NCBI GenBank assembly: GCA_024278985.1
Contig: JAJRSC010000020.1
Location: 1 to 36,327, forward strand
Direction of reading: 5' to 3'
DNA: 36,327 bases
DNA from: an archaeon
Lineage (GTDB): Archaea > AGJL01 > Methanococci > Methanococcales > Methanocaldococcaceae
A program made the position numbers and the translations under genes. The notes under the pieces were generated by a model. It made no database searches, had not been told where the DNA came from, and saw only the letters and a list, made by a program, of their open reading frames with translations. Shown here piece by piece: positions 29,614 through 31,978 of this stretch; within the stretch, counting starts at the first letter, position 1; each line of letters opens with the position of its first letter.

Positions 29614-29980
29614 TTTTTCCCTTTTTAAGTTTATAATAGTGATACTCAACTGTCTTAATATTTAGACCTGTCTTTTTAGCTATTTCCTCAGGTTTTAAAT
29701 GAAGATACTTTTTAATAATTTTATCTACATTTGTAGGTCTTCCAGTTTTAGGTTTAACTGCTTTTATCTTAATCCCAACACCTTCAAGAGCTTTTAATAT
29801 CCTTTTTGATGTTCTTTTATATTTTGATATGGGAATATATATTATTTTTGGCTCAATATTATCTAAAAGAGATATTGCTATGTCCCTATCAATTTCTTTA
29901 TTAATATAAACCTCTTCATCTGGTTCAGATTCTTCAATTTTTTTTAATATTTCTTCTTTTTTTCCTCTAAGAATTAGCAT
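29606..29980 (-). CDS. DUF1699-like protein with C-terminal helix-turn-helix
   Basis: 124 aa. The first 75 residues (VYINKEIDRDIAISLLDNIE, then IIYIPISKYKRTSKRILKAL) have the repeating pattern I associate with DUF1699 of methanogens. Residues 95-118 (LKPEEIAKKTGLNIKTVEYHY) form a helix-turn-helix, so a DNA-binding regulator is plausible. It starts on the last base of nob1 and overlaps moaB, in a run of five genes. Confidence 0.65.
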   Translation of the reverse strand: MLILRGKKEEILKKIEESEPDEEVYINKEIDRDIAISLLDNIEPKIIYIPISKYKRTSKRILKALEGVGIKIKAVKPKTGRPTNVDKIIKKYLHLKPEEIAKKTGLNIKTVEYHYYKLKKGKNA

Positions 29981-30486
29981 TATTTTTTCACATTTATAGC
30001 TTTTCTTTTAACCTCAGAGCCACATACTTCACATTCTCCTTCATAATCAATAGGATATTTCTTTTTACAACCAATACAAACCTTCCTCCAAATAATTTTT
30101 TTATCTGTATTATAGTATATCCCTCTAACCTTTACATTCAACTTTTTAGATACATTATGAATTCCAAAATCATCAGAGATTACTTCTCCATCTAACTCCA
30201 AAGCTAAGGCAATAGTTTTAATATCTGCCTCAGATAACTCTTCACCAAGGTCTTTAACAGTTTTAATTACTTTATCAATAAATTCCTTTTTTGGAGATTT
30301 TATTTTAACCTTTCCTATATTAATTGCCTGGTCAATAATTATTTTATTTGTCTCTATCTCTTCCAAAACTTCTGGAGTTATATAATAATCATCATTATAA
30401 AAAAGAGGATTATATCCATGTATTATTGCAGATGCATCTAAAATTTTAATCTTTTTCTCTGTTTTGTCTGCTGGTGAGAAGAACAA
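29980..30486 (-). CDS. nob1: rRNA maturation endonuclease Nob1
   Basis: 168 aa from TTG 30486, five bases after a GGTGA (30492-30496); a GTG start at 30498 lies within that site. PIN domain with the first active Asp in [24 protein letters not shown] and ISDDFGIHN supplying the other acidic residues, then a zinc ribbon CIGC...CEVCG. Cuts the 3' end of 16S rRNA precursor. It overlaps the end of the MCP-like gene by 41 bases, an unexpected coupling. Confidence 0.93.
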
Positions 30487-31201
30487 GAAGCTCACCAAGG
30501 TCTTTATTAAACTTTTTTTGTAAGTTATTTAATTCCTCTAAGGCAATTGATATCCCAGATAATCCTTTAATATCATGAACAATCTCTTCCTGTTCTTGAG
30601 ATATAGAATCTAATAACTTACTTATTTCAGTAATTTTTTGAATATCAGTTCCTAATAGTTCAGTTCCTTCTTTAACCTTATCAATTACATTTACAACCTC
30701 TCTTAACTGGTTTAATTCTTCCATTATCTCTTCATTAAATTTTCTAATTTTTTTAGTAAGTTCCATTGTTTGATTTGCCATTTTTCTAATTTCATCAGCA
30801 ACAACAGCAAACCCTCTTCCATATTCTTTAGCTCTCTCTGCTTCAATTGAGGCATTTAATGCAACTAAATTGGTATGTTTAGCAACTTTATTAATTTCTT
30901 CACTAATTTCAGAAATATATTTTAGGTTTTCTACAAGCTTGTTAAATTCTTTAGAAAATATTTCTAACTTTTCAAAAAATGGTAAAAAATCATTTCTAAA
31001 TTTTTCAAGTTCATCAACAATTTGAGAAAGTCTTTCAATATTTTGAAGTATAATTTCATTATTTTCTAAGAATTTTTCAGAAATACTTATAGCTAATTCA
31101 TTAATAATTTTAGAAGTTTCCTTATTACCTGCTTCTAATCTAACAGCTCCAGATAATACTTCAGAAGCTTTTATAATTTCTTTTGAAGTATCTGTTTTCA
31201 T
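30446..31201 (-). CDS. Soluble methyl-accepting-chemotaxis-like signalling protein
   Basis: 251 aa with no membrane helix and no recognisable sensor domain. The central [20 protein letters not shown] then [16 protein letters not shown] (residues 106-140) is the conserved hairpin tip of chemoreceptors, where CheA and CheW bind; the flanks are long antiparallel coiled coils (25-105 and 140-240). No methylation helix consensus was found. It lies 12 bases after the ODP-like diiron gene, so a shared signal path is likely. No CheA, CheW or CheY gene is in the window. Confidence 0.88.
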
Positions 31202-31213
31202 AAATATCTACCT

Positions 31214-31978
31214 TTAGAGCATTATATCAATTCCACATTTTAAATTTTCTAAAAATGTAAAAAATCTATTAACATATTTTCTTGGGATTATTGAACCATG
31301 TTGAGGAACAATAGCCTCAATATCAAAATGTCTAACTCTACTCACCCAATTTTTTAATGCTAAGTTACTTGCCATTAGTCTTTCATGTAAGGTTTTCATA
31401 CATTCTATATGTTTGTCCATATCATCAACTACTAATTGTGGCTTTTCAAGAAAGGCAATTCCTATATCTCCAGTAAATAAAAACTTACTTTTTCTATCAT
31501 ATATAGTAAAATGTCCCGGACTGTGTAAAAAATGAGCTGGAATAAATTCTAATACTGTATTTCCAAATTTTATGGATTCTCCTTCATCTGGAAGAGGATG
31601 AGCAACAGTATCAACATCCTCAAATCCAAAATGTGGTAAAAATCTAATCCATAACCAGCTTGTTACAACTTTTGCATCAGTAATTGCTCTCCAGAGTGGA
31701 ATACTTCCAGCTACATCAGGGTCTTGATGACACATATAAATATATTTTATATTTTTTGGATTTATATATTTTGAAATATTGGATATAACTTTAGGAAATA
31801 TTTTATATCCTCCTGGGTCTAATAAAAAACCTTCCCTCTTGCTAATAATTAAATAACTATTTACATCAACATCTCCAGCTCCAATATAAGTTCCTAAATA
31901 AACAACTTTATAATCCTTATCCTCAAATAAAACATGGTCTTTTCTTGCATCTAACTCAGGGCTTAAATTATATTTCAT
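31214..31978 (-). CDS. ODP-like diiron metallo-beta-lactamase-fold protein
   Basis: 254 aa, one domain, related to the diiron half of flavodiiron proteins (FprA) but with no flavodoxin domain. Likely metal ligands: His84, Asp86 and Asp88 in [10 protein letters not shown], His152 in AHFLHSPGH, Asp171 in FTGDIG and His227 in VPQHGSI. Compared with the FprA HxExDH motif, Glu is replaced by Asp and the final His by Val89. This pattern and the partner gene match the oxygen-binding diiron proteins (ODP) linked to chemoreceptors. Sensing of O2 or iron is inferred. First gene of the ODP-MCP-nob1-moaB run. Confidence 0.85.

Follow-up and report, generated by a model that had tools for sequence, protein, structure and literature searches.

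Oxygen-binding diiron proteins in chemotaxis

The closest described relatives of the gene pair considered here are the oxygen-binding diiron proteins (ODPs) of bacterial chemotaxis, where ODP and receptor are known as a pair by experiment. In Treponema denticola, the ODP is an oxygen sensor and is genetically coupled to TDE2496, a receptor that modulates CheA and has neither a membrane nor a sensing module (PMC7666581). A review describes the direct binding of both iron and oxygen by ODP, along with its interaction with its receptor (PMC6978683). Where the TREND paper summarises Muok et al. 2019, it states that signalling in both bacteria and archaea has recruited ODPs, two groups of which share operons with MCP genes, in two gene orders (PMC7319448). 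The archaeal occurrence of ODPs is already in the literature, in which we found no biochemistry on any archaeal ODP. The present analysis adds the near-adjacent linkage of ODP and receptor genes in Methanococcales and in the Thermococcus phylum, the restriction of the ODP to Che-positive genomes, and the features of the receptor at its tip and its distal end.

The ODP protein and its iron-ligand residues

The window, meaning the whole stretch of 36,327 nucleotides analysed, comes from a thermophilic, methanogenic archaeon and encodes the following ODP gene and ligand positions:

31214..31978, minus strand: odp, 254 aa, ATG start; predicted ODP-family diiron sensor protein of metallo-beta-lactamase fold (PF19583, phmmer, Foldseek)
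31712..31729, minus strand: first iron-ligand segment, H84-Q-D86-P-D88-V89 (HQDPDV), the same in both solved ODPs
31523..31534, minus strand: H149-F-L-H152, from the alignment to flavodiiron 4dik; invariant in ODP alignment A4
31466..31468, minus strand: D171, putative bridging-Asp position (TGDIG); invariant in the alignments
31298..31300, minus strand: H227, putative last His ligand position (PQHG); invariant in the alignments

The protein is an archaeal member of the ODP family of chemotaxis oxygen-binding diiron proteins. It matches the Pfam 'ODP family' (PF19583) at 244.7 bits (E 9.4e-73; cut-off 27.2 bits), and ODP and Lactamase_B are its only Pfam matches, with no flavodoxin domain among them, which makes it a stand-alone diiron domain of the usual size of about 250 residues. 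This agrees with the preliminary description, which had presented a flavodiiron-like protein of this length without flavodoxin. Searched against the PDB with phmmer, the sequence retrieves two entries described as 'oxygen-binding diiron protein' (6qrq, E 2e-64; 6qnm, E 2e-63). The AlphaFold model (pLDDT 85, pTM 0.87) superposes in Foldseek on the T. maritima ODP 6qwo with a TMq of 0.88 and 43% identity; for 6r9n, an ODP structure in the peroxy-diiron state, the TMq is 0.82. Taken together, the solved chemotaxis ODPs of Thermotoga maritima and T. denticola match the model with a TM of about 0.85 and 41-43% identity, and flavodiiron proteins give a clearly weaker fold match (TMq about 0.7).

The preliminary description had also singled out HQDPDV as standing in place of the HxExDH motif. 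The motif is indeed there, but it is no oddity, since both solved ODPs and every one of the 34 intact ODP-receptor pairs read carry it unchanged; the idea of a damaged iron site was thus rejected, as HQDPDV is the normal ODP motif. Among the remaining ligand positions, H152 aligns with a flavodiiron His ligand in 4dik, and H152, D171 and H227 are conserved in the solved ODPs, in alignment A4 and in the 34 pairs. H149 is an extra His, invariant within the clade of the window ODP. By analogy to flavodiiron proteins, D171 would serve as the bridging Asp and H227 as the last His ligand. As a member of the ODP family, the protein would be expected to bind two irons and O2 and to form a stable peroxy species.

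The cytoplasmic receptor

Immediately downstream lies a chemoreceptor gene, with these features:

31202..31213, minus strand: intergenic gap AGGTAGATATTT, 12 bp; contains AGGT, resembling a Shine-Dalgarno sequence, 8 bp ahead of the MCP start
30446..31201, minus strand: odp-linked cytoplasmic chemoreceptor, 251 aa, ATG start; bare signalling hairpin (PF00015)
30782..30862, minus strand: hairpin tip A114-K140, within the PF00015 match; conserved CheA/CheW contact region of MCPs
30554..30580, minus strand: return-arm motif V208-HDIKGLSG-216, conserved in receptor alignment A3

PF00015 (94 bits, E 1.1e-26) is the only Pfam domain in this protein, and the structure model consists of two helices, spanning residues 5-123 and 125-250. 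The highest 19-residue hydropathy is 0.63, compared to 2.2-3.3 in 17 of the 18 other MCPs of these genomes. Neither a membrane segment nor a sensor domain was detected by hydropathy, Pfam or predicted structure, and the protein is thus a cytoplasmic MCP without a sensor domain. The soluble hairpin 12 bases on, lacking sensor and membrane parts, had been described from the outset and is borne out by the coordinates, Pfam, hydropathy and the two-helix model.

The tip segment A114-K140 corresponds to the established CheA/CheW contact region of MCPs, and its residues Glu120, Arg123, Glu126 and Glu137 are invariant among 11 receptor homologues. The tip reads IEAERAKE in the Methanocaldococcus-group receptors (L010-L013) and IEAARAGE in the Methanothermococcus-group, Thermococcus and Aquificota pairs. 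At the opposite, tip-distal end the receptor bears segments whose conservation is clade-specific, namely residues about 27-40 and a return motif V-H-D-I-K-x-L-x-G, in which H209-K212 and G216 are invariant in alignment A3 and which lies roughly facing residues 30-40. On sequence conservation, one may speculate that these distal segments form a docking site for the ODP. The last 53 bp of the receptor gene are shared with an open reading frame for a PIN-domain (Nob1-like) protein (window 29980-30498), and a PIN-domain-type gene likewise comes after the receptor in one relative (L012).

Linkage of the two genes

The short gap and its AGGT suggest that odp and the receptor gene are co-transcribed and translationally coupled. 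Of 14 genomes in the window's family, 4 have the short ODP, as do 9 of 36 in its phylum, and in every case the MCP gene follows it. Among 115 genomes of the phylum to which a Thermococcus MAG belongs, 30 carry the close form of the ODP, and an MCP follows it directly in each of the 25 loci fetched, its frame being broken in one of these (L089); one Aquificota MAG (L068) holds the same pair. Across all loci examined, from Methanococcales, the Thermococcus phylum and the single Aquificota genome, the receptor gene follows odp on the same strand (35/35), at a spacing of -17 to +22 bp in 34 of them, the locus with the broken frame being left out. The scan of named genomes relied on strict peptide patterns and gave four loci, a figure that is not a census. 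The order Methanococcales was assigned through two Methanothermococcus MAG loci (L065, L066), which correspond to G027 and G026, genomes belonging to that order. The genes flanking the pair vary among the Methanococcales loci, and therefore it is the pair itself that is conserved rather than its neighbourhood; chance adjacency was rejected on the invariable linkage and the varying neighbours. The preliminary description had named a lack of co-occurrence in relatives as what would speak against a sensing pair. The genes instead proved linked throughout, and this linkage, together with the conserved ligand residues, supports the proposal that ODP and cytoplasmic MCP form such a pair. Evolutionary distances of the two proteins correlate at 0.93, a value with no species-tree correction that is not taken as a sign of interaction.

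Genomes of the Thermococcus phylum also carry a second, more diverged ODP that retains HQDPDV (L108-L114). In the seven loci read, no MCP was seen beside it, and in all seven it is immediately preceded, in the same orientation, by an uncharacterised gene of about 260 codons; a CoxG-like Pfam match to this gene product, below threshold, appears in one locus only. The diverged form possibly represents another ODP output.

Chemotaxis machinery and the archaellum

The preliminary description held that M. jannaschii has no Che system and considered that CheA and CheW might be missing here as well. The first point is correct, since M. jannaschii lacks Che genes (PMC2666748) and is absent among the CheW-positive control genomes, and this explains how the idea of a Che-less genome arose. 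The idea itself fails: the assembly, at 85.8% completeness, encodes CheW, CheB, CheA and CheD in a row (L003). A further locus (L064) encodes CheF, CheY and a phosphatase resembling CheX/CheC, and its contig has archaellins at its start. One in-frame TAA interrupts cheA (L003:10929-10931; G000 contig C4) at a position occupied by Leu in two relatives (L054, L055), dividing an N-terminal part (Hpt, P2) from a C-terminal part (P2, dimerisation, kinase, CheW-like). This stop codon could reflect an error in the MAG, a polymorphism or a genuinely split gene and, unless it is an assembly error, may impair signal output in this organism.

CheW was found in 21 and was absent in 15 of the 36 genomes of the phylum, and the short ODP is confined to the Che-positive ones (9/21 against 0/15; hypergeometric p 0.003, with the relatedness of the genomes ignored). 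The two genomes outside the phylum that were reached by name (L067, L068) likewise encode CheW-domain proteins.

Proposed function and alternatives

The window pair is very probably an archaeal ODP and cytoplasmic-MCP module, in which a sensor of oxygen or iron feeds CheA, CheY, CheF and the archaellum. In such a scheme, the ODP would carry its diiron centre in the cytoplasm and report oxygen, or alternatively Fe2+ or redox state, by acting on its cognate soluble hairpin, the product of the gene that follows. The receptor tip would join CheW and CheA, altering CheA autophosphorylation and hence the level of CheY~P, which through CheF would alter archaellum switching; in an obligate anaerobe the outcome would be oxygen avoidance. 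We infer a direct contact between ODP and receptor, as well as the sign of the response, and modulation of CheA by the ODP through its receptor is expected by analogy with the bacterial system. Because the Che machinery and archaellins are present in this genome, the ordinary route of swimming control is the most likely one, and on the best reading a new signalling output is not needed to explain the pair.

The cue may differ while anatomy and output stay as proposed, the pair responding mainly to Fe2+ or another redox signal and not to oxygen, which we regard as unlikely. Vent habitats are rich in iron, a point in favour of an iron cue. Also in its favour, the title of Muok 2019, a paper cited by both PMC7666581 and PMC7319448, calls the bacterial protein a sensor of Fe(II) and oxygen.

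Much less probable is an enzyme that detoxifies O2 or NO and has an MCP as an incidental neighbour. The ODP does share its fold with flavodiiron O2/NO reductases, but it has neither the HxExDH ligand motif nor the C-terminal flavodoxin of those proteins, the genome encodes a separate flavodiiron protein carrying HSEKDH, and the invariable linkage to an MCP would be left unexplained; motif, domain make-up and linkage thus all disfavour this reading.

Least credible is the output that the preliminary description deduced for a genome lacking CheA/CheW, in which the hairpin would signal to some different partner and so provide a new output: the slightly different IEAERAKE tips and the interrupted cheA lend it some colour, but CheA and CheW are encoded here, the CheA-contact positions Glu120, Arg123 and Glu137 are conserved, the ODP is missing from every one of the phylum's 15 genomes without CheW, and modulation of CheA is known for the T. 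denticola homologue (PMC7666581), so that 'no CheA/CheW, hence new output' was rejected. It is similarly improbable that the Methanocaldococcus-group receptor, bearing the IEAERAKE tip, has an output that is altered or in part bypasses CheA in a genome whose CheA is split into phosphotransfer and kinase halves.

As an oxygen or iron sensor signalling through the Che system, the pair would provide a strict anaerobe with a concrete candidate for steering its archaellum. The hyperthermophilic, near-adjacent genes with their many homologues also offer material for structures of signalling from a diiron protein to a hairpin, a resource that includes the candidate docking region on the receptor.

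Comparison with known systems

Flavodiiron proteins (FprA/ROO, TM0755) share the diiron metallo-beta-lactamase fold with the window ODP (TMq about 0.7), but possess the flavodoxin domain and HxExDH motif that it lacks. The membrane chemoreceptors of the same genome have the MCPsignal tip in common with the window receptor, whereas they are membrane-bound proteins of 395-567 aa with a different tip sequence and the window receptor is soluble. Among solved structures, the ODP of T. maritima (6qrq, 6qwo) resembles the window ODP at 43% identity and a TM of about 0.88, and the soluble chemoreceptor 3g6b/3g67, which we take to be from T. maritima as well, is the best match of the window receptor. 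The T. denticola ODP (TDE2498) shares the fold, HQDPDV and the other ligand residues with the window ODP at 41-42% identity, and its partner TDE2496, like the window receptor, is gene-linked and lacks membrane and sensing modules (PMC7666581). The two pairs differ in that the archaeal sequences are those of a hyperthermophile, with the MCP gene coming directly after odp, and in that the T. denticola pair acts on bacterial flagella, whereas the window pair would be expected to act on the archaellum via CheF.
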